This document shows positions 10,901 to 56,585 of a DNA stretch of 64,000 nucleotides, piece by piece; the stretch's first letter is position 1, and each line of letters starts with the position of its first letter. The stretch is from Siphonodentalium dalli. Lineage: Eukaryota > Mollusca > Scaphopoda > Gadilida > Siphonodentaliidae. A program made the position numbers and the translations under genes. The stretch covers positions 35,409,797 to 35,473,796 of the forward strand of contig CP136061.1 of NCBI GenBank assembly GCA_032622095.1, in the 5' to 3' direction. The notes under the pieces are model-generated. The model was given only the letters and a program-made list of their open reading frames with translations. It made no database searches and was not told the origin of the DNA.

Positions 10901-13900
10901 TTGTCTGCCTTTGTCACGATCAGCAATAGGTTGTTTTGTCTGAATAAGTGGGATGAGGTCTTGTACTGTTTCGTTTATATAGAGCAATTCCGGGTGTCTG
11001 GGTGGTGACCTTTAGGTTGATCTTGACCTTAGGTTGATCTTGACCTAGTTTTATTTGGTAAAGGTTACATGTACTTCTATTTTTGAGTAAAGGTTTCACT
11101 TTTATGTAAGTGCATGAGTTCACAACAACTAGAATTCGTGGAGAATTCACATTTAAAAGTTTGTTTGTGACGTCACAGTAGCTTAAAAGTAAATTTGAAA
11201 CTCTAACATTGCTCAAAGCAGGTATTTCAATACATTTTGTATCAAAATGGTATCAAAATTGCTAGAATACAACACCATTCTTTTATATAAGTTAAATAAA
11301 TTCTCGTTTGTTTATCACAAATATTCATGTTGGCATCTGCGCTGGGGCAGCATTAAAGATCTTGTGCCAGTACATTCTCTTATATATGCGAGTCTCCCAT
11401 AGGAAGTCTAAAGGACTTAATTGGTTAACTAAGAGTTAATTGGTGGTACGTCGACGAAGGAGCTGAACACTGATGACTTGAGCCTCTAATTATGTAGACC
11501 ACAACTGTGTTATACCGTTGATAAAGGCTGTGATGGCTGAAAGCTTCGGCAAAGAGTTTGTTACTTATTGTTCCTGTTATTAAGAGAAACATAACTCAGA
11601 ACTAAGGGTCATAACTCAGGTAAAAACAAGATGGCTACCAGCAGCATATTTTTTGTCGAAAATCATTCAGATTTGATAGCTCCCATCTACAGGTGATCCT
11701 AAACAAGGCTGTAAAGTTTCAAAACAACTCTCCAATAAATGTGGGCTACAGGGTGTGCTGATGGATTCATAATTGAAATTAGGAGGCTCCCATCTAGAGG
11801 TCACCCTGAATGTCCATATGAAGTTTGGTGATGATTGGATGAAAAATGTGACCTATAAGGTGTGCTAAAGGTTTAGTCATACAATGAGTAAAATCAAAGA
11901 TTGCCGAGTTTTTAATAAAATTCAGAAAAATGGTAGGGCACCCATCTAGAGGTCACCCCGAGGATCCGTATGGTTTGGTGATGATCGGATGAGGGATATG
12001 CTCTGTAGGGTGTGCTAAAGGATTTAGTGATGCAAAGAGTAAAATCCAAGATGGCTGGTGGAAGCCATGTTTTTCATCGAAAATCATTCAAATTCGATAG
12101 CTCCCATCCAGAGGTGATCCTAAATAAGCCTGTAAAGTTTCAAACAATTCTCCAATTGATATTGTTGTGCACAACAAACCCATATACCAAATATCAATTG
12201 ACGTTTGTTTGAGTTATCTTGCTAATGGTCTCGCCCAACCTCGCCATAACTGGAGTTTTTTTTTTTAAACTTGACTTTGATAATGAAGATACTTTGCAGA
12301 GAATATGAGGCCAAAGCAGAATGAGATCCCCAGAAGGTGAATTTAATTGTGCTAGCATTCTGTATGGGGTAGCATCACTAAATTCACCCTTTGGGGACCT
12401 CACTCTGCAAATGTCCGGCACCATATTTTCAGGCCTGTTCGTATGATTTTAACCCTTCATGACTGCAGCTTCCTGAAATTTTGGGAAAGTCACCCATAGG
12501 GAACCAGCCTCACATATATAAGAATACATTGGCCTAACAATATTGACCTTGTAAGCCAGTGAATTCTTGTATATATGCGAGGTTCCCTCACAATATAAGA
12601 GAATGCACAGGCACAGCTTAATTAATGCTGCACCAGCGCACCCCCTGTCCGGAATGGGTTAATGGTTTAGTAATGATACCAGATATTAGTCACTTACAAT
12701 CTGTTTAATTTCCGATAGATCCTCATCTCGTTTGAATGACACTCTTCGCTTTGGTCTCGGTGACGATTCAGAGTCAGAAACAGGCCACGAATCCTCTTCT
12801 AATGACGTGTCTGACTTGATGGATTTGGTCGAGGCTCTCTTCATTGGGTGCTTCGCTGGCGATTCCTGCCCAGTCTCCTCATTCCGTTTACCATCCTTTA
12901 GCACTGGGAGTTTAGTAGGGGACGACTCTGTTCGAAAGAAAACATACAATTTTAAAAGAAATTATTTCCTATGTGCGATTTAGCTTGATTTCTTGAGTTA
13001 ATATAAACGATAATTTCACTAGTAAATTATGTCACTTTAACTAGCATGTTTTGTATAAAAATTTATGTGTCATGGGTATAATGGTGGTATTATTAGGAAT
13101 TCTGGTAAATCATATGTTTATAGTGGAATATAATAAACTGAATAATCACTTGATTGAACTTGTGATGTGAAATAATTCATTCGAGGCAGGGATTATGTTG
13201 TAAAACACCTGAGTGCTCTCATGTTTGTACACGCCCCTGCCTCTCATTAATTATTTCATGTTACCAGTGCAATCAAGTGATTACTCTCTATATGGCAGCA
13301 GTAATGTTAACCCTTTACCCAACAGAACGGCCCTGTGCCAATGCATTCTCTTATATATGCGAGTCGACCATAGGTCACCTCGCATATATAAGAGAATGCA
13401 TTGGCTTAACACATATTAAAAATTATAAAATTGTCAAAGAATGTAGAAAAATATTATAAAAAATGTTAAAAAATGTAAGAAAAAATTATAAAATTGTTAA
13501 AGAATGTAAGAAAAAATGGTAAAAAGTGTTAAAAAAGATTTTTTTTAGGCCAATGCATTCTCTTATATATGCGAGGCGACCTATGGTCGACTCGCATATA
13601 TAAGAGAATGCATTGGCACAGGGCATAACGGTAACCTGAGCGCTCTCATGTTTGTACAACATCCCTGCCTCTCATTAATTATTTCAAGTCACAGTTCAAT
13701 AAAGTGATTATTCTCTATATAATCACATGTTGAAACTGCAATTTGCCTTCTTTCTATGACTGTTTTTTGTTTGCATCAAGAGACTAAGTTAGAGCTGTAT
13801 ATTTTTCCACTGTTGGTGTATGTCTTAAATTTCGCAACTCAGTAGACTCAATTTCATCCATATGGCGTTTTACACCCACATTAGGGTTACATATCTGGTT

Positions 13901-22900: not shown

Positions 22901-25900
22901 TGTTTGAAATTCATACAAGATTATAACACTGATTTTTCATTTAGAGCGACACTAATCATAACTTTCACAATTTTAGATGAAAATAATTATAGCATATAGG
23001 CGAGCACTGTAAAACTAATTAATCTATTTCTGCAGATGCCTTGTCTCCTAGCAACTGTAAGCTCCTCCCACAAATGAGTAAGTGCGGAAACCTCAATTGG
23101 CTCCAGTATGAAAGTTTATTAAATCAAATACCAAGATCTGATACTCCTGTGAACTTTCCACCAATTATATCAACATTTGATTCATTTTCATCTATGAACA
23201 AGATCACCCATCGCTAGGGCGTGGTAAAATGCGCCCCTGGTAATTCCAACAAAGAGCTATAACTCTAGTAAAAATTGGCGGGCGGAACCCAAATTCGAAA
23301 TCGACCTGCATTCTCAGCTGGTAAACTCACTTACCAAATTTCATTCCATTCAGTTCCAACTTATTAAATTATCATCTGGAAACTTCGAACAAATTCTAAC
23401 AATGGGCTGCAAATCACTGCGTAATAGGCGGGCGGAACCAACAAACCAAATTTCATTCCATTCAGTTGAAACTATCTAAAGTTTATATCCGGAAACCAAA
23501 AGCAAAGGACGGATGGATGGACAATCATCCAATAACATAATACATCCCACTTTTTAAAAACGTGCATATAAAAATAAAAATAAAAACTCATTTAGTGGTA
23601 CAACAATTGAGTGCCATACAATTAATGGTTTATTTATATAAAGGAAAGCATTGCACAAACCACATGTTACACTTGCACATCTTATCATGGTCAATAATAG
23701 TTTGCCAGCAGAAATGATCTCATGAATATCAAATCTATACATTCACTTCATTCTAGACAAATACCAATGATAATCCCCAAAACAATGTTCAAGATTTGAT
23801 TTGATGCGAAATCATGCAAATGGTTCAAGTTGAAAAAAATCAATAATTTTTCTAACCCTCTCACACCGGGTGACCAAGATAAAGTGATGAATTACTCGTT
23901 ATGTTTTCTATAATCACCGACGACAAAAACAAATTGTTAATGTTGCTAAACTTTTGATGATGGTGGTTCGATTCGACGAGCGATTTGATGTGAAATCTTT
24001 CCTGGATTCAATTTGAGGTTAGATTCGACAAAAAAATTGTGATTTGCAGAAGCCTATTCTTTAAATTCCTGACAATTATTACTGTCCCTCTGAATATTTT
24101 ATTTTATTTTAATTATTTTAGTGAAAATATTAATATCTGCCGACAAGATAAATTTTAGCCCAAGTCCCCGAGTCAGCAGTTCCACATTGAATATGGGAGA
24201 AGATCTAGAAGAGTAAGAATTTCTGAAATATGTTTAATCTTATAGGACACCTACCATCTCCCATATCACTAGCTGGAGCACCGAAGCCACTGGCAAATTC
24301 TCCTCGTGGAGTGTTCACAGCACTAGGTGGACCCGATGTCGTTGTTCTCGGCGTGCTGGCTGTGCTAGCGAATCTCGTCCTCATACGATGATCATTGATG
24401 AGCTGACCACACCCAACATGTCCATGTACGACGGTCAAGTCTTCAGCTGCGTACCCTGTAGATAATGATAGTTGTCATTCGACAGTCAAGGGGTGCAGTG
24501 ACCAAAATTGTGTCCAACCATTTCTTCACTTAAGCCTCTCAATACTAAATACTCATTGCCAAGTAGTTCTCTCATGAAATGTTCCGATAATAAGTGCAAA
24601 AAAACGACCATATGTATTATCTGAACATTTCCCACCAATGAATATGAATCATTCTGCTATTGTATTATCTGTTTTTCTGTCTGTCGTCTGCTTTTATTAC
24701 CTGAACACTAATAAACAGTTCCAATGTGTACCTCTTGGAGAATCCATTTAGTATAGGAAGGGTTAAACGGACACAAGTTCCATGCAGAGTTCAGTCCCCT
24801 ACACAGGACTTACCGCTGACCGCAGCTACACGTAATGTGAAGAAATCACACATTTATTTATTTGAGACTTTTGTAGGTTACAATTCATTCTGCATTATTC
24901 TTAGAAACTGAACTGTCCGTATTCATTTGAAAATTGTCAAGATCAAGCCAGAATGAATTGTAACATACAAAACACCAATAAAGATACACATGCTGGCAGC
25001 GGTCAGACATAGCGTAGTGAGGGGACTGAACTCTGTTTTGCAGCTTGAAATGGACATGGCTCATTTGAACCTCCAAGTTATGTACACATAATTTGTGAGG
25101 CGGAATACGCAGTGGAATAGTTCTGACTGAACTCATCAATAATGAATATAGTAGTAAAATAAATGTCTTTCTTTCACAATTTTAGGTGGAGGAGACTTCA
25201 ATAAGTCTTTTCAAGACATATAAAGTGTGTTTATAAAAGTATTGCATGTATTTAGGAACATATTTTGAACCCAAAACTAGGCAAGAGTACAAGTCTTGAA
25301 ATGTGTCTGCCATTTGCAGCGGGATAGCATCACTAAATTCACCCTATGGGGATCTCATTCTGCTTAGGCTTCATCTTCTAGGAACAATCTATAGTCTGAA
25401 ATTAACATTGTTTTAGTTACTTTTTCCCTTCTGTATCCTCTAATTTGCAAAAGATAAAATACATAATCGAGGACCTCATCCTGCAAATGACAGACACACT
25501 ATTTCAAGGCTTGCAAGAGTGTGATGAAATCGAGAATTATTTGGTTTAGTTTGAGGCTCCAAACCATCTTCAAGCAAGAATAAACTCTCACTTAGGCTTC
25601 TTAAACCTTCTATGACTGGAGCTTCCTTAAATTTTGCGAAAACCCTGTGCCAATGTATTTTCTTATATATGCAAGTCTTCCTTAGGGAGCCTGGCATATA
25701 TATAAGAGAATTCATTGGCCTTGACCTTGACCTTGTAAGCTAGTGCATTCTCGTTTATATGCGAGGCTCCCTATGGGAGACTCGCATATATAAGAGAATG
25801 CACTGGCACATGATCTTTAATGCAGCACCAGCGCAGCTCCCGTCATGAAAGGGTTAATAGTAATTTTGATAAGCAATATAGCTTTAGAAATAGATTACAA

Positions 25901-28900
25901 AGACTTTACCTTGAGTGTCCTTAAGTTCAAGGTCAGGATTGAATTCAAGAAGAGCTCTGACAAGGTTAGCTGAACCGTCTTTACAAGCCATCATCAAAAC
26001 CGTGCTGAAAAACGTAAAGGACAAGGTTAGCTGAACCGTCTTTACAATTAAGCCATCATCAAAACCGTGCTGAAAAACGTTAAGGACAATGATAGCTGAA
26101 CCGTCTTTACACGCCATCATCAAAACTGTGCTGAAAAACATCAAGGACAAGGTTAGATGAACCGTCTTAACATGCCATCATCAAAACAGTGCTGAAAAAC
26201 ATAAATCAATCACAAGAGCTCCGACAAGGTTACATGTAGCTGAACTGTCTTTACACCATGCTGAAAAACATCGAGGACAAGGTTAGCTGAACCGTCTTTA
26301 CATGCCATCATCAAAACCGTGCTGAAAAACATAAATCAATCACAAGAGCTCCGACAATGTAGCTGAACTGTCTTTAAACGCCATCATCAAAACTGTGCTG
26401 AAAAACATCAAGGACAAGGTTAGCTGAACCGTCTTTACATGCCATCATCAAAACCGTGCTGAAAAACATAAATCAATCACAAGAGCTCCGACAATGTAGC
26501 TGAACTGTCTTTAAACGCCATCATCAAAACTGTGCTGAAAAACATCAAGGACAAGGTTAGCTGAACCGTCTTTACATGCCATCATCAAAACCGTGCTGAA
26601 AAACATAAATCAATCACAAGAGCTCCGACAAGGTTACATGTAGCTGAACTGTCTTTACACCATGCTGAAAAACATCGAGGACAAGGTTAGCTGAACCGTC
26701 TTTACATGCCATCATCAAAACCGTGCTGAAAAACATAAATCAATCACAAGAGCTCCGACAAGGTTACATGTAGCTGAACTGTCTTTACACCATGCTGAAA
26801 AACATCGAGGACAAGGTTAGCTGAACCGTCTTTACATGCCATCATCAAAACCGTGCTGAAAAACATAAATCAATCACAAGAGCTCCGACAAGGTTACATG
26901 TAGCTGAACTGTCTTTACACCATGCTGAAAAACATCGAGGACAAGGTTAGCTGAACCGTCTTTACATGCCATCATCAAAACCGTGCTGAAAAACATCGAG
27001 GACAAGGTTAGCTGAACCGTCTTTACATGCCATCATCAAAACCGTGCTGAAAAACAAAATGACGATCACCTCTAAGAATGCATAGTATTGACCTAGGTTT
27101 TGTAACCCATTCAAAATTGTGAAATCTCCTGCTCCAGATTCTATATCTGATTTTGAATCTGTGGAATAGTGCCGAATCACAGGTCCCTAATTAAAAGCCA
27201 ACACAAGAAAACTATGCGTTATAATATTTTTATATATGCCCTTATGCGCCTAAATATTAGGGATGTGGCGATGTCCCAATAGTGGCCAAAGTGGTAACTT
27301 AAATTTTTTTAACACATTTTATCGAAAGATATAACTTATTACCACTACACTCAAAATACATGTATCCATGTACCGAATGCATGACACTGGGAGATAGGGC
27401 CCTGCAAATCGGCATGTTTCTGCAGATTCAAAATTCAATATACAAATGGTGAGCCAATATCGACATCGAATCAAATCAGCAAGCCCTTTAACCCTTTACC
27501 CAACAGAAGGGCCCTGTGCCAATGCATTCTCTTATATATGCGAATCGACCATAGGTCGCCTCGCATATATAAGAGAATGCATTGCTTAACACATTAAAAA
27601 TTATAAAATTGTTAAAGAATGTAAGAAAAAATGGTAAAAAGTGTTAAAAAAAGATTTTTTTTAGGCCAATGCATTCTCTTATATATGCGAGGCGACCTAT
27701 GGTCGACTCGCATATATAAGAGAATGCATTGGCACAGGGCATAACTGTAACTATCACAATGTGGTCAAGGAGCCAGTTCCAATGATATCCATATTTGTAT
27801 GGTTCTATTGAGACAGACCCAAGATAATTTAGACTGTTGAAGCTTTATTTGGCCGGTTTTGGCCGTTTTGTTGGGTAAAGGGTTAATGGATGTTTATGAT
27901 TTTTATTTCTCAGACTGACTTTTAACTACAGATGTATTTTGAGCATCTTTTTAGGATTCGCGTATCTCATCGGTTCAGTCATTTTAACCTTCACGTATTT
28001 CTTATCCAATCTGTTTTTATTGTATATATACTTTTATCTGCTCTTTTATGTAACAGCGCCTTTTATGAACACAATTCTGTTGTGGGTTAGGTGCTATACA
28101 AATTTTAATAATAATAATAATAATAATAACAATAATAATAATAATAATAACAATAATAATAATAACAATAATAATAATAATAACAATAATAATAATAACA
28201 AGAGGTGTGCACTCGAGTGCTAGCATACCCCCACTGTGGCAAATTCAACCCGCATTATCTGTAAACCCAACAAAAAAGATTTTTAACTTTAAAGAAAAAT
28301 TCGGTCAAAATAAGTCGAAAATGAGGCGTAACTAAAAGTCGGACCGAACCGCAATTAGCATCATGCGGAGAGGCAGTCCTAAGGAGATTGCATACAAAAA
28401 ATTATTGAAATCGGTTCATAGTTGTTTGAGTTATGAGGTCGGACGGACGGATGGACGGACCGACGGAAGGACGGTTGCACGGAGGGAGAAAGCGTGACGG
28501 ACGGACGGACGCAGTCAATCCAGTATACCCCCCATTTTCTTCGAAAGTGGGGGTATAATAATGTAAGTGTACACCCACAATTTTGATGCAGTTTGCAAAA
28601 ATTGGGCACAAACAGATCTATAACCATTCCAACAACACAATTAAAATCATAAAATACTAGCTCTTTTGGACAGTTTGTCCCTTATATAATCCTTTTGAAG
28701 GTATACCTATTATGTTAACCAACCTCTAATAATACTATATCAGCATATTACGATAAATATCGTGGATACGTCACTCCTATATTTCATCATTATCATGAGC
28801 AAACTGTCCAACATAGCGACAATGATATTCAAATCGGGGATCCAATTCTGTGTCAACACCAAAACAAAATGGCGGAATCGACATCAAATTGAATCTCAAA

Positions 28901-31900
28901 TATTTGCAGGGCCCTACTGGGAGATCTCTTTGTCATGCTCCGTGTCTGAAGAATAGAGTAGGTTGCCACAATGGATGACATATTAGTATACAACTAACCT
29001 GCCATTTTTGTCTTGTCGGTTAATATCTCCCCCTTCTTGCAGGAGTATTCGACATATGTCTTCTCTCCTGTCTCGAACCGAAATGTGAAGGGGTGAAACA
29101 CCGATCTGCAAAATAACAACAAAGAACTGTTAGTTATCAGACTAAAATTCAGTGGATGATGTAAAGCAGTTTTTGGTCGCCGAATCAACGCTATTGTTTC
29201 AAATTAGTTATTCAATTTATTTATGAGCAATAATAAATTGAAATTCTCCATTTACTATTTTACACCTACTAGTATAACAAGATTAGATAACATTTGTTGG
29301 AGTTATTGCACTTATGTCAACAAATGGAGACCCGGAAAACAACCTAGGATGCATAACACCTGAAATAAAATTCGACCAGGACTGGTTTTCAAACTGAGTA
29401 ACAGATATCTTAATTCTCACCTTGTTGCCATGGTTGAGGTTAGCACCGGCCTGTATGAGCTGAGACATGATGTATGTGTGACCGTCAGCCACAGCGTAGT
29501 GCATACTAGAGTTACCTTCCCTGTCTGCAGCATCTACGTCAACTCGTCGATCGATCAATAAAGCAACACACTCTTCGTTGCGACATTCTACAGCCTAAAA
29601 AAACAATTAAAAAATATATGATCGTAACAAGAGGTTGGATGGACCACAGGTGCTGGCATACCATCACGGGCAGTGCCAGAGTGAAACATGGTCAGGGCGG
29701 AACCCAAATTTAGAAACAAAGGAGAATAACTCTAAAAGGGAAAATATCAACATCGTCAACATCGCATTGAAAGCCCTTGTGAATTTAAACTCCGATCCAT
29801 ACCAAATTTCGTTAAGATCCTATAATCCACAGCTAATATACAGTAATGCTCTAATTAATCGACCTCTTAACCAAAGCAGAATTATGGGTAACTTTTCAGG
29901 ATTTAGTCGGAAATATGGCTTGTTGCCATTCATCGGAAAGCTCTCCCCGAGAGCTTTCCGATGAATGGCAACAAGCCATATTTCCGACTAAATCCTGAAA
30001 AGTTACCCATAATTCTGCTTTGGTTAAGAGGTCGATTAATTAGAGCATTACTGTACTCAGGCGGACAGACAGAAAACCATTATTTTCAGATAAACAATGA
30101 AGCATAACTCTAGAACAGAAACAGCCAAAAATGTCATTGAACACTCTTTTGCGAGCACTCAAAAAGCTCCACAACAAATTTCAATGAGATCCAATAAACC
30201 ATGGGTGGGATGTACATGTACATGTGCGCAGCAAGACAGAAAACCATTATTTCCAGATAAACAAAGAAGGATAACTCTAAAATGGGAAACACAAAATCCA
30301 TTGGGCCTCTAAAATTAAAGCACTCCTGATTCCATTCAGATCTGATATCCCAAGGCCCAGATCTATGGACAGACAATACCACTTATTTTATCCCGAAAAG
30401 TGGGGAGTATAAAAATATATTTAACCCTTTGAGTGCCAGGTCCGATTTTTGTATCAACCCATGCATTGGCTTAACATTTTTTTTTTTTTTTTTTTTTTTT
30501 TTACAGTTGATGAGATCGGCCCCTGGCACTCAAAGGGTTAAAGCATTCTGATGAGCTCTAGAAGTCTCACAAACCAATCTCCCATAGAAATTCTGCTTTT
30601 TGTAACATAGTGATTGTTACGTAATGAGTGATAGGAATATATTTAAAAACAAGAATTTGCACCTTGTAGATAGCATGGTGCCAAATTTAAACATGGGCAG
30701 GACAAATCCCAAATTGAAAACAAGAGCTGGGCTATTGCCCAATGTATACCGTACATATACCCCCCATGTGTCATACTGCCTATTGTGGGGCTGTGGGCAT
30801 ACCTATAACCTATGGCTGAGATACATGTACATGTACTCAGGCGAGACCCATAAATCAACATTTTCAGAAAAAAAAACGATGAATAACTATAGAAAGGAAA
30901 ACCACTCAATTGAATGTCTTCAAAATAGTAATATCCATAGTATTCCATACCAATTTTCATTAACATCCAACAACCTATGGTTGAGATATCTGCTTGGACA
31001 GACAAAAAAAAAACATTTCCAGATAAACAAAAATGAATAACTGTAGGAAAACCCGAACAAAATGATTGACCACTCAATGAATCATTGAATGTGCTCATAA
31101 TAGAGAACATCCATACGATATTCATTGAGATCCGACAAGTGGCAACAACCGGTGGTTGAGATATCTGCCCGGATGGACGAACGAACGGAGGATCGGATGC
31201 ATGTAATCCAGTATACCCACCATTTCCTTCTGACATGGGGGGGGGGGGGGGGTATAATAAACAAAGAAGGAAAACTCTAGAATGGAAATTGGAAACAAAG
31301 TCATTGGGCACTCTTTTGAAAGCAGTCATGATAGTGAAAGTCCACACCAAATTAAGTTTAGGCATCAACTGCTATGGGAGACCTAGGATCATATTGAAGT
31401 TCCCCAGTTGAAGTTGGTCACTTCGATTATCCATTTTATTGTCTGCAAATTAGGGGATATAGAAATTGAAGAGAAGGGAAAAAATAACTAAAAACAATGT
31501 TAATTTGAGACAATAGATACTTTCCAGAAATGAGGCCTAAGCAGAACGAGGTCCCCACAGGGTGAACTTGGTGAATGGTGATGCTAGCCTGCTGTGTGGG
31601 AAAGCGTCACTAAATTCACCCTCTGGGGACCTCATTCTGCAAATGACAGACACATTATTTGCATGTAAAACAACACATTTGAAATGAAAAGCGTCACCTG
31701 AAAGACACTACCTTGTTTGATATTGAATTCTCTATTCATTTATTTAATGTCATTTTGATATTTTAGCAGGACAGCAATAACTAGAGATGGGCTTGTCCCA
31801 GATGGGACTAAGTAATACCCCCGTATTCAAAATGTTATTTGAGTGAAGTAGCCATTACCATATATTGGGCACTGAAATTATGTCAACAGGTATCCCTAAC

Positions 31901-34900
31901 CCTAAACCCCCTAACCCTAACCCCTAAACATAATCATAACTTCACAAAAAAAAGTCGGACAGACTTCATAATCGCAGGTGCACAGGTTCCCATGTTACTA
32001 AATATCAGTGCCAAGATTAAAAAACATTGACCTAACTAGAGGTGTGACTGTCCCAATGGGACTACGGATACCCCCCTGTTTTTAAAATACTAAGATGTTT
32101 CACATGTCAGTAAACGTTTAGTTAAAATAATAAAATAACAGTTCCCATTGCAGGTGTAACCCTAATCTTAAACCTATTGACCGAAAAATGTAGGAATAAA
32201 AGCTTGGACAAAAATATGTATGTTGCGAAAAAAATTCTAAGTCGAAAAAGGGGAATAACTCCACCAAAAAATATCGGACAGACGTCATAATCGCAGGTGC
32301 ACAAGTTCCCATGGTACTAAATATCTGTGCCACGTTTTAAAAAAATTGACCGAAAAATGTAGGAATAAAAGCTCGGACAAAAGTATACATGTTGCGAAAA
32401 AGGGGGGTAAACTCCACGAAAAAAAGTCCGACAGACGTCATAATCGCAGGTGCACAGGTTCCCATGGTGGTTGATGTCTGTGCCAAGTTTCACGACAATT
32501 GATCAAAAAACAACTGAGAAAAACTCCGGACAAATTTGTGTCCACGGACGCACGACCGACGGACGGACAAGCTGACTCCAGTATAACCCCCTAACTTCGT
32601 TGCGGGTGGTATAATAATTTGTTAATTTACACAAAATTACATTCTTCAGTATATACATGTACTATGTCACATTTGGTTTTCACTATTTTTTTAGTGGAAA
32701 AAAAGCCAAAAATCATGTAAATTAGATTTTGAATGTTGTTGTTGAAATTAGAGGTTTGGAGCACTGATACTGGTAGGTACTGGTACATGTACATGATATG
32801 TTTCTTTCAATTTGCTCAAAGACCTAAGATACACCTCCCACTGAGGCCAAACTTCATGACATGTTGCACAATTAAATATTAATAACCTGTACAAAGACAA
32901 CAATAACCATACAAAGGGGAGCTTGTTTTTCATCATTCCACCTGATTCCACACTGATTAATTATTAATTATAGTATACAGGTGTGTTATAATACCTGGCC
33001 TAATTAGATTACCAGGTAACAGGGAATTTCTTATTGATTTTCTCTGGTGAGATATCAGTCTTTACATCAAATTATAACGCCAATCTTAGATCTGTGTTTG
33101 GGCGGCAAGAAATAAAAGATCAGGTTGTGACTTGTTAAGAATTGGATGAATCAACCTAAGTTGGATCATTTTAACAGTAACTGCATTACTACAACAAATC
33201 AATGTGTGAAATTTACTCTCAAATGAAGACATCAGATCATAAGCTTTTCCCACATTAGTATTAATGTTAGTAATATTGGTATTGTATTGGTAATGATATC
33301 AGTAGTCATTGAAATTGTTTTGAAAGGCACATATTACATTTGCAACTTCAATTAATTATTTTTGAAGATATGAGTATGTGTGAGTTGAAGGATGGGAGAC
33401 ATACACTGTACATTATAACAAATTTGATATTCATGAAATTCCATCCTCAATTTGTAGTTAAGGTCAATTCATCACCAACAAAATTTCAACTCATAATCAC
33501 CTATCAAATGTGCTTAATGCATTTATAGGATCCTGCAAAAAGTTCATTGTTAAATTCATTATTTGATTCGGTTCCAACATATAAAACAAATTTGGTTTAA
33601 AATTTATAGTTCGAAAGTGTTTGAATATACCGAAATTTTGTCAACTGCTACAAGTATGATTTTTTTTTTCTTCTATCAATCACTGTTAAAATCTTGAATA
33701 AAATTTGCCTGATACAGATGGAAAACAATTGCAGGTTACGTGAAATCGTGAATTGCGAAAGTATTTGCTTGAGCGCTAGTTAATATGTTAACTATAAAGT
33801 ATTAGTCAGAACAAGTCCAGGCACCGACTGAACAATCAACATTAGTCGAAACGTTATGTGACATGCACTCAGCATGGCATATAACATGTATAGTCAGGCC
33901 AAAAAAAAAAGATGCTATGTTTCCGTACATCGACCGACCCTAAAAATAACCTGCCGACCCTAATCTTTTTATTGATATTTTGAGAAAAAGTCAAAATTTT
34001 CTTAAAACTTTTTTTCACTGTTTTTACCACTAATGCTCATAAATATTGATGAACATTAGTGTGCAAAACACATGGTTTCTAACATATGCCTGTGAAAAGT
34101 GACCATGAAGTGACAGTTGTCTCAAAAGCCCCAGGTGTGTGATGGGTTGTTGATGGATGGGCATTAATTTTTCAATTTTAATTTCATGAGAGTGGATCTC
34201 ATGTCTGCTTTACCTGTATGCCTTGCTTGGGACTTATGGAACATACTCATGGTTTCCAAATAAACATGCACGCACATTTATTATTTTCTTGGGAAATTTC
34301 CTCCCTGCACAGTGCTTATTTGAGTCTGCAAGTTTATTAATTTTCAGGCTATGAAAATTGAAATCAGCACAAACTCAAGATTTCTATATGATTCTGATAC
34401 CAAATTGATGAGCTTATAACTTTATGCATGTACATATTCAAATATATGGCATACATGTGAACATTTAAATATTGAATAAAACACTACATGACACATACTA
34501 TGTTGATTCCTATGCTTGATCTACATGTACTATAAATTTTTTAACTATAGTTGATGTTTTGCTCAGTTTCCACTGTGCTATTATTAACTTTCAATGGAAT
34601 TTTTCCCCTGCACTATTATTTGGGCCTGCACTTTTATTTGGAGCCCGAGAGTACCGGTAGGAGCACTATCAACAGACATGGTGTGTGTATCTGTATATAT
34701 ACATGTATAGAGGTTATCACTACATATGTTAGGGGTACAGCTACTGTTTTCAAAAACCAGGCATGCTTGGTTGGGTGTACTGGCTACCTCAAGACAATAG
34801 GATGTAGTCGTCACAATACAAGTAAGGTATAATGGCGGTATTATAGGGTAAAATTCTTATAAAAGTTAGTGACATCAATTTCGTACCAAGTTTATAGCCA

Positions 34901-40900: not shown

Positions 40901-43900
40901 ACATCGGGTGGCCATTTTGGCAGCCATTTTTTGGTACTGATTTTAAAGTTTTTACATAGAGCTAGCATAATGGCATCATAAAGAGGTATACATTCGTATT
41001 TATTTAGTCAATTTTATTCATCAACCACTACTTATAATGGATTGAATGACACTGTGATCAATATCCGCCATTTTCCATATTTTGACCGCCATTTTGGCAA
41101 CCATTTTAAGACAAAGCGCCAATTTGGGTTTCATTGAATTGGAGTATTTATAGATATTGGTATGCCCAACTTACATTGTACAGTTCTGTCCATTTCTTGT
41201 TGATATATGACTGTAATCACAATGGCGAGTTTTGTGGAATTTTATACCGCGTTCTGTAAAATCAAATTTTTGAGGGTGTAGATGAGTCTGGGACCCCATT
41301 TATGGTATCTTTCATTGATCCAATGCTGAATCAACATGAATAAGCCTAATCAAAAGTCGCCAGTCTGAACCATTATCAAACAACAGAAATTGATCTTTAA
41401 GATATTAGGCAAAAACTTCAAATGTTCGAGTTTAGGCTGCCATTTTGGCGGCCATCTGGGACGAGGGGTTCCATTTTTGCCATAAACAGGTGGCACAATA
41501 TTTTACCTTTGCAAAAATGTATACATTTGTATACATATGACAACATTTGTTCTCACTATTATCGAATTAATCTCAGTCAGAGTATCTTTTGACTAACGGC
41601 AGCCGTGTTGGACACCATCTTGGATCCTGAATTTTGCCCAAAGCGGATTTTAGCGGATTTTGGATATGTTATACACGAGATTCTCCCGCGTCGAATGACA
41701 CCAAAACCGCTTCTTTACCAATTTCTTCTGGGTCTAACCCTCCTACGACCACACTATATACCCCCCCCCCCTAACTTCGTTGCGGGGGGTATAAAAAATA
41801 GGGTACTATTGGCATCGTGAATATTCAGCATGTACGGTATGTATCCCTGTGTTTTAATAACTTCTTATATTGCATCTCTGTAATACAGACTGTGGATAAA
41901 TGAGCTTGATACAAATGGGGGAAATGTTGTGGTAGCTTAATATAAGTCCTACAGAGTGCCTATCGTCTGCTCATATTATCAGAACATCCCTAGAAATGAA
42001 GAACAGACCATTCCAATACGTACATGTAAATGTACATGTACATATACATGTAATTAGTCACTTTTCACACATTACACTGTGTTAATCCAGCCCCATACAA
42101 CTGGAATGTTTATAGGGCTCATGTATTTTGCTCACAAATAGTCAATACGGAGAGACATGTTATTCAAATACATAACAAGAACATTTGTAAAAAGAGGGGA
42201 GGCCGGATTGCAAGAAACGCAGGTCATTTTATTTATTTTTTGAATAATACATGTACCGCTATTCTCAAAGTAATTGACCAGAAAAACGGGGTGATACCCC
42301 GGTCATGACCGCGGTGATACCGGTAATAAACGGTAGCGGTATCGAGACGGTCATGGCGTGGAGTTACGGTATTGGGCGATAATGATACCGTGGTCTTTTA
42401 GCGGGCACCGCATTAATTTTGTTGAATACCGCGGTGATTTTCATGGAACTCTTTTAGGGGAGGTATTTACTCACACATACTAGTACTTGTTCGCGTTAAC
42501 AAGCGGTATCAGTACCGCGGTATTGGAGGATACCATGGTATAGTACCGCCATATTAACGGGGTGACACCACGTTATTGGTGGTCAATTACTTTAAGTATA
42601 GCGGTAGTTTATCTTGCAATTAGATTCTTTGTCCTAACATAATGTACATGCAGAAAAGACTAGGCGATTTGTTTCTAAAACGTTTACAATTACATGTGCA
42701 AGTGTCATAAGTTATTTCTATTCGATTTACCGGTACAGCATCTGACATTCCGTATACATAATGTCATTTTAAACCAACTGATAAATTTCTGGTGGTAATG
42801 GCGAAAACAGCAATGGTTTGATGCAACGCATTCATGTACCGGTATGTACAAAATGTCCTATTTTGACAAAGTGAATTGTTAATGACGTAATACTTTGCAG
42901 TGATGCGCAATGACATCAACTGTGCAGTGTACTATTTCATACACTAAATGACATGTTCTTCTGTTAAAGTACCTTTTAATCTATATTCTGTAGTATGAGT
43001 TGTAAGATAAATTGGTTATCATTACCCTGTAGGTTCCCAAGATTGGCAGTTAACCCTTTACCCAACAAACCGGCCAAAAACGCCCAAATAAAGCTTCAAC
43101 AGCTTAAAATATATTCGGTCTGTCTCAAGAACACCATACAAATATGGATATCATTGGAACCGGCTCATTGACCACATTGTGATGGTTACAGTTATGCCCT
43201 GTGCCAATGCATTCTCTTATATATGCGAGTCGACCATAGGTTGCCTCGCATATATAAGAGAATCCATTCTTTAACAATTTTATAATTTTTAATGTGTTAA
43301 GCCAATGCATTCTCTTATATATGCGAGGCGACCTATGGTCGACTCGCATATATAAGAGAATGCATTGGCACAGGGCCGTTCTGTTGGGTAAAGGGTTAAG
43401 TCTCTCTACCTTCTCTGGGCCCTCTATCGAGTGCTCAGAGAAGGTAGCTCGACTTGAATACAGATCTCGGAAACCTACATGTACATGTACATGGTGCTGG
43501 TATTAAACCTATACAATGTATATCTATGATATATTTGGTCTATGATAGCTCGTTCGAGCTATAAAAAGTTTAAACAAAGTACTAAATTTGGGTCTTGATT
43601 ACTTGCGCATATACCGGGTATGGTTATACAAAATTAGGTGTTGACGGAAAGGGAAAGGAGAACATTCCATGCTAGGAATATCCGTTATGATGGAAGGCCT
43701 TCAGAAGACATGATGTTTGAAGTGGGAACGGGACTACCCACCTGTGACCGAACCCGCCCATCTGCTATTTCCAGACAGGTTCGCTCAGAATTGTTCATAC
43801 TGGTAGTTATATGTTCTTTGTTGATATATTATTAAACTTTTTGAACAATAAAACATGTGATTATTCATTTATAATGTCAATATGTGGACTGGAGTAAACA

Positions 43901-56048: not shown

Positions 56049-56585
56049 TAGATTTCAACGTAATTTGATACTTAAGGGTATTTGTGTCCGGGAAGTGTTT
56101 TGGACGGGTCAAATCGTGAGCCCGACCCGACCTTGACCTTTAAAACTGTCAATGCAAGGTCAATTTGGGTAAAACGGACAAATTTCGTCGAAATTTGATA
56201 CCTATGGATACTTTTGTCCGGGGAGTGTTTTGAACGGGTCAAATCGTGACATCGGCGTGACCTTGACCTTCAATGTGGTCAATCAAAGGTCAAATCGGGT
56301 AAAACGGACAAATTTCGTCGAAATTTGATACCTATGGATACTTTTGTCGGGGGAGTGTTTTGGACGGGTCAAATCATGACTCCGACCTTACCTTGACCTT
56401 CAAAATTGTTAATTAAAGGTCAAGTGGGGTAAAACGGACGGATTTCGACGAAATTTGATACCTAGTGGTACTTTTCTCCGGGTGGGGGTGTTTTCGACGG
56501 GTCAAATCATGACCCTGACCTGACCTTGACTTTCGAAATAGTCAATTGAAGGTCAAATCGCGCCTTTCGCCGGAAATCAGATGGG
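56049..56585. repeat. Four ~120-130 bp tandem units with TGACCTTGACCTT
   Basis: Units share GACGGGTCAAATC, TGACCTTGACCTT, AAGGTCAA, GGGTAAAACGGAC and CGAAATTTGATACCTA (starts near 56072, 56192, 56322, 56452). Each carries at least three AGGTCA-type half-sites. Confidence 0.9.

Follow-up and report, generated by a model that had tools for sequence, protein, structure and literature searches.

The minus strand of the analyzed 64-kb window (the whole stretch of 64,000 nucleotides) carries an ankyrin gene. Exons 1-5 were placed by exon joining and translation within this window, and all four joins were in frame (Table 1). This placement confirmed two statements of the first-pass annotation: the donor at 28998 and the position of the array-associated exon as the fifth exon. 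The 241-aa product of exons 1-5 matched the Pfam families Ank_2 (3e-37) and Ank (1.9e-33); the exon-1 and exon-4 stretches taken singly matched no Pfam family. Comparison with solved ankyrins gave a best whole-sequence E value of 1.3e-98 (nine stretches summed) and a best single stretch of 3.6e-18. The ankyrin repeats are continuous across the exon joins when exon 5 is entered via acceptor 17. The gene may be ANKRD26-like, and its host would seem to be an animal, perhaps a mollusc. No exon 6 was found downstream of exon 5 in a motif scan of low sensitivity, which recovered exons 1, 2 and 4 but neither exon 3 nor exon 5; the exon-5 donor call therefore rests on CAAG/GTAAAG and on the end of the ankyrin match. 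An open stretch on the minus strand at 12686-12961, charged and serine-rich, may be a later exon of the gene; it had no Pfam match at E ≤1.

Intron 4 is ~3 kb long. It contains a TAA microsatellite of 31 copies at 28106-28198. A palindromic element with arms TCTCTTATATATGCGA / TCGCATATATAAGAGA, presumably of the foldback or MITE type, has 34 exact arm matches in the 64 kb, four of them within intron 4; example sites are 27528-27724 and 43213-43360. Intron 2 contains a telomere-like short repeat, CCCTAACCCTAAACC, in 2.1 copies at 31894-31924.

Table 1. Positions of the ankyrin gene exons, splice sites and acceptor array in the window.
Feature	Position	Strand	Description
Exon 1	49689-49457	minus	233 nt; start MKKFFKGIGKK
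Exon 2	36206-36092	minus	115 nt, ankyrin
Exon 3	29594-29421	minus	174 nt, ankyrin
Exon 4	29105-28999	minus	107 nt, ankyrin
Exon-4 GT donor	28997-28998	minus	partner of all 17 acceptors
Acceptor array	25960-27056	minus	16 tandem copies of intron 3′ tail plus exon-5 start, adjoining the real exon start
Acceptors 1-14	26192-27055	minus	decoys; 14 of 14 lead to a stop
Acceptor 15	26131-26139	minus	sole decoy with an open in-frame exon: 221 nt, +126 nt, +42 aa; CTAAC 22 nt upstream
Acceptor 16	26070-26078	minus	decoy leading to a stop
CTAAC match for acceptor 17	26026-26030	minus	within exon-derived sequence of unit 16; branch A 22 nt ahead of the G in AG
Acceptor 17 (GTTTTTCAG)	26005-26013	minus	keeps the ankyrin frame at normal length, 95-nt exon
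Exon 5	26004-25910	minus	95 nt, ankyrin repeat STVLMMACKDGSANLVRALLEFNPDLELKDTQ
Exon-5 donor	25904-25909	minus	CAAG/GTAAAG
AG ends, acceptors 1-9	27047, 26986, 26925, 26856, 26795, 26726, 26665, 26596, 26535	minus	
AG ends, acceptors 10-17	26459, 26398, 26322, 26261, 26192, 26131, 26070, 26005	minus	

Scanning of positions 25880-27200 revealed 17 exact GTTTTTCAG acceptors at 26005-27055, the last of which is the real one. All minus-strand occurrences of GTTTTTCAG in the window lie in this array; the plus strand has 2. Tandem Repeats Finder (TRF) reported a 61-bp period with 17.0 copies at 25959-27063 and a higher-order 130-bp period at 26129-26996. The splice site GTTTTTCAG is thus present in 17 of 17 copies of a tandem repeat that adjoins exon 5. 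The array described by the first-pass annotation is real and lies in the orientation of the gene, on the gene's own strand beside exon 5; its "17-fold" amplification is correct as a count of acceptors, the real one and 16 additional ones.

The acceptors are spaced 61, 65, 69 or 76 nt apart, and the units tile with zero leftover. The 16 intervals comprise seven distinct sequences, which run 5′ to 3′ in the gene as A A B A B A B C D C D A B E F G, followed by the real exon (A, C, E and F, 61 bp; G, 65 bp; B, 69 bp; D, 76 bp). Every unit has an intronic tail ending in GTTTTTCAG; the exon copy in A units is CACGGTTTTGATGATGGCATGTAAAGACGGTTCAGCTAACCTTGTC, and B and D units extend further into the exon (GGAGCTCTT, versus AGAGCTCTT in exon 5). 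The annotation had also assigned an acceptor and the exon-5 start to each unit. The acceptor is found in all of them, but ~14 nt of the exon start is absent from the four B units and kept in 12 of 16 units. Three contiguous A+B blocks of 130 bp are identical, as had been claimed, a pattern in line with recent growth; a fourth identical block is formed by units 12-13, and the two C+D blocks (137 bp) are likewise identical. Units E, F and G, nearest the real exon, occur once each, whereas the distal units form the identical blocks. This unit order would fit older copies beside the exon and a recent expansion away from it.

The four identical A+B blocks and two identical C+D blocks would also fit a partial assembly artefact, in which the real array is shorter and the higher-order blocks were miscounted. 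However, the array contains seven distinct unit sequences and is therefore not one unit copied in assembly; indels also separate B, D and G. We consider such an artefact improbable, with the reservation that the count of identical 130/137-bp blocks is not secure. A dispersed repeat or transposon was rejected as the source: with the array as blastn query, a single 14-nt match (E 0.52) was found elsewhere in the window, so that local duplication is favored within this window. A second tandem array at 56062-56560 (130-bp period, 3.8 copies) had no blastn match to the acceptor array. A search for prokaryotic or viral occurrences of the exact unit patterns gave 0 matches in viral_contigs and genome_contigs, collections in which the animal's own genome is possibly absent and which are uninformative on animals.

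Pyrimidine-rich AGs occur at 16.3 per kb in the array, versus 2.8 per kb on the rest of the minus strand. In 300 single-base shuffles of the array, such AGs numbered 5.4 on average and 14 at most, versus 17 observed. The RNA fold of the array was no better than that of shuffled sequences (391 nt, z 0.00; equal or greater stability in 48 of 100 shuffles); thus, no structural role is indicated for the array RNA.

Translation was followed from each acceptor as far as the exon-5 donor, in the phase that exon 4 sets. Decoy exons ranged from 160 nt (acceptor 16) to 1137 nt (acceptor 1), and 15 of the 16 decoys met a stop after 3-37 residues. The earlier statement that most upstream choices would create long, frame-shifted or stopped exons was borne out to that extent; it overlooked acceptor 15, which remains open and in frame and may give a minor isoform with 42 extra residues. 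The suggestion that only the "donor-proximal acceptor" works is correct only if the exon-5 donor was meant; across intron 4, no acceptor lies farther from donor 28998 than the productive one.

The acceptors differ in their branch-point matches. The branch-point consensus is UACUAAC. We applied a crude filter that required at least 5 of 7 matches to this consensus, a branch A 13-45 nt upstream, and no intervening AG. Nine of the 17 acceptors passed (2, 3, 5, 7, 9, 11, 13, 15 and 17); these, the real one among them, are branch point-pyrimidine-AG modules. Weaker matches were found at the other eight: acceptor 1, which has native intron upstream; acceptors 4, 6, 8, 10, 12 and 14, preceded by B or D; and acceptor 16, preceded by unit F, in which CTAAC is changed to CTATC. 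The layout of one donor facing 17 near-identical acceptors, as annotated, is correct, but the acceptors are unequal, since CTAAC lies 22 nt upstream in 9 of 17 and weaker matches in 8. The origin of the stronger match is the exon itself. The exon codons GCT-AAC contain CUAAC, and because this lies in the exon start, nine of the 16 duplicates (units A, C, E and G) carry a branch-point match together with a pyrimidine tract and AG, with 22 nt from the branch A of CTAAC to the G of the AG that follows. The best-scoring branch point of the real acceptor sits in such a duplicated exon fragment, and would presumably be the one used.

When intron 4 and exon 5 were examined as a whole (148 AGs, first 60 nt skipped), 20 AGs passed the pyrimidine filter, of which the array accounts for 17; adding the branch-point filter left 10, all but one of them (9) in the array. 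Across the entire minus strand, 193 AGs passed the pyrimidine filter and 50 passed both (array share, 17 and 9). Control counts were 135 pyrimidine-rich AGs on the plus strand (34 with a strong branch point) and 176 on the minus strand outside the array (41). The exon-4 acceptor of the gene has AACTAAC upstream and a branch-point score of 6. The real acceptors of exons 2 and 3 passed the pyrimidine step and had branch-point scores of just 3 and 4 of 7; the score therefore does not decide use, and a low score does not mean a dead site.

We infer that the array most probably arose by recent, neutral, local tandem duplication, and that it is tolerated because exon definition favors the acceptor nearest the exon-5 donor. 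The unit pattern suggests that a segment spanning the intron-4/exon-5 junction was duplicated in tandem and then expanded, as 61-76-bp units and as 130/137-bp blocks, by unequal exchange or slippage. The real acceptor would use the branch point in the copy before acceptor 17. Given the 3-kb upstream intron, exon 5 would be recognized as a pair of 3′ and 5′ splice sites, and the winning acceptor would be the one that lies 95 nt from the exon-5 donor. Decoy products would presumably be rare and removed by nonsense-mediated decay. PMC9225289 states that 3′ splice sites at least 20 nt apart are typically each defined by their own tract and branch point. It also describes an exon-centric rule of proximity that operates under exon definition, a mode that starts when flanking introns exceed 200-250 nt. 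Because intron 4 is ~3 kb, exon definition can be expected to operate here, and acceptor 17 should prevail. The same source reports an overall preference for the upstream 3′ splice site, a preference that is significantly reduced with long flanking introns. This general preference is the main evidence against tolerance; under an intron-centric rule, an upstream decoy should win.

Conservation among the copies bears on the neutrality of the array. When the copies were aligned on the acceptor motif, 11 adjoining columns across the acceptor were invariant in 17 of 17 copies, whereas 68 of 95 columns varied. An invariant run of that length was found in 1 of 20,000 column shuffles with all 17 copies and in 2 of 20,000 with the 16 decoys alone. 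The copies are non-independent (10 of 17 stretches are distinct), and gap columns inflate variability. Because of the motif-anchored alignment, the shared stretches and the variable columns added by gaps, these invariant columns are only a hint of possible selection on the acceptors, one that would count against neutrality.

A rival reading is a splicing brake, in which several acceptor modules bind U2AF and U2 snRNP together and slow or block the removal of intron 4, the number of units setting the output. Nine modules have a strong branch-point match. In PMC5389562, duplication of the strong 3′ splice site of a globin substrate led to double occupancy and poor splicing, and splicing of this globin 2x3′ss substrate rose several-fold with a competitor oligonucleotide. 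If this double-occupancy effect applied here, 9 to 17 modules could hold back the gene. However, that result was obtained in vitro with a two-site substrate, the ankyrin array is known from its sequence, and selection should act to remove a strong brake from a gene that is needed. We prefer tolerance to a brake, which we regard as unlikely; tolerance is also a simpler reading than the tuning of splicing that the first-pass annotation gave as one option. A step beyond the brake, and a little less likely still, is a natural splicing rheostat, in which an array able to expand would consist of complete 3′ splice-site modules, thanks to a branch point spelled by chance in the exon codons. The number of units would set productive splicing, and acceptor 15 would offer the isoform with 42 additional residues.

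The units also contain donor-like motifs. All 16 units carry GTTTTTCAG, and 13 of them also carry GTAAAG, so that the array could be read as a series of potential mini-introns and short exons, an intron gain in progress as in gain by tandem duplication. The distance from a unit GTAAAG to the next acceptor is 41 or 63 nt, and an exon that ran from an acceptor up to the following GTAAAG would measure 6, 20 or 24 nt, or, in the case of units E and D, 81 or 96 nt. Against this, an animal intron of 41 nt would be very short. The GTAAAG copies in the units all have T at -1, whereas the real exon-5 donor, also GTAAAG, has G, and the array sits within an existing intron. A precedent is the intron of potato RdRp, which, according to PMC4974935, arose via duplication of the 3′ side of an intron and the 5′ side of an exon, a cryptic exonic GTAAG serving as donor. 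We judge intron gain to be very improbable here.

Tolerated duplication remains our preferred explanation, and the locus provides a natural test case for splice-site choice: near-identical 3′ splice sites at 61-76-nt steps face one donor, and only one or two of them would be productive. About half of the acceptors have a strong and half a weak branch-point match; junction counts would tell apart the upstream-first, exon-proximity and mutual-inhibition rules. The array also illustrates that a duplicated exon piece can turn codons into a branch-point match.

Tandem-repeat units carry alternative splice sites of the gene in human IFI6 (6-16), as far as the available excerpts describe it, as they do in the ankyrin array; IFI6 multiplies donors, in a repeat unit that is reportedly 12 bp, whereas the ankyrin array multiplies acceptors in 61-76-bp units. 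The IFI6 minisatellite gives rise to multiple splice donors (Turri et al. 1995, as cited in excerpts of PMC3618361 and PMC4526556), and two downstream repeat units are used as donors (PMC4526556). PMC4974935 contains further parallels. The duplicated segment in potato RdRp consists, like our unit, of the 3′ part of an intron and the 5′ part of the next exon. In fission-yeast SPOG_01682 (cited there), a 24-bp exonic AGGT segment is repeated several times in tandem and an intron spans four of the duplicates; the duplicated region of vertebrate ATP2A1 (cited there) includes a tract and branch point. Together with IFI6, these cases are the nearest precedents, and a branch point derived from duplicated exon sequence is thus not new in itself. 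The use of IFI6 units is reported in transcripts, and the potato, fission-yeast and ATP2A1 duplications made new spliced introns, whereas here 16 extra copies inside an old intron are observed as genomic sequence. Narrow queries, with partial coverage of the literature on tandem repeats and duplications at acceptors, returned no counterpart of the acceptor array, which is a weak absence; the papers that came up, judged from excerpts, concerned MUC1, Drosophila introns from sliding or tandem duplication (PMC2891723) and amphioxus globins (PMC3087553). An expanded acceptor-side array, with 17 sites facing one donor within an existing intron, was not seen elsewhere in these queries and may be new. 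It also resembles laboratory substrates in which like 3′ splice sites compete for one donor (GloC-2x3′ss, PMC5389562; Reed and Maniatis, cited in PMC9225289). The PMC5389562 substrate has two engineered sites, whereas the ankyrin array has 17 natural ones.
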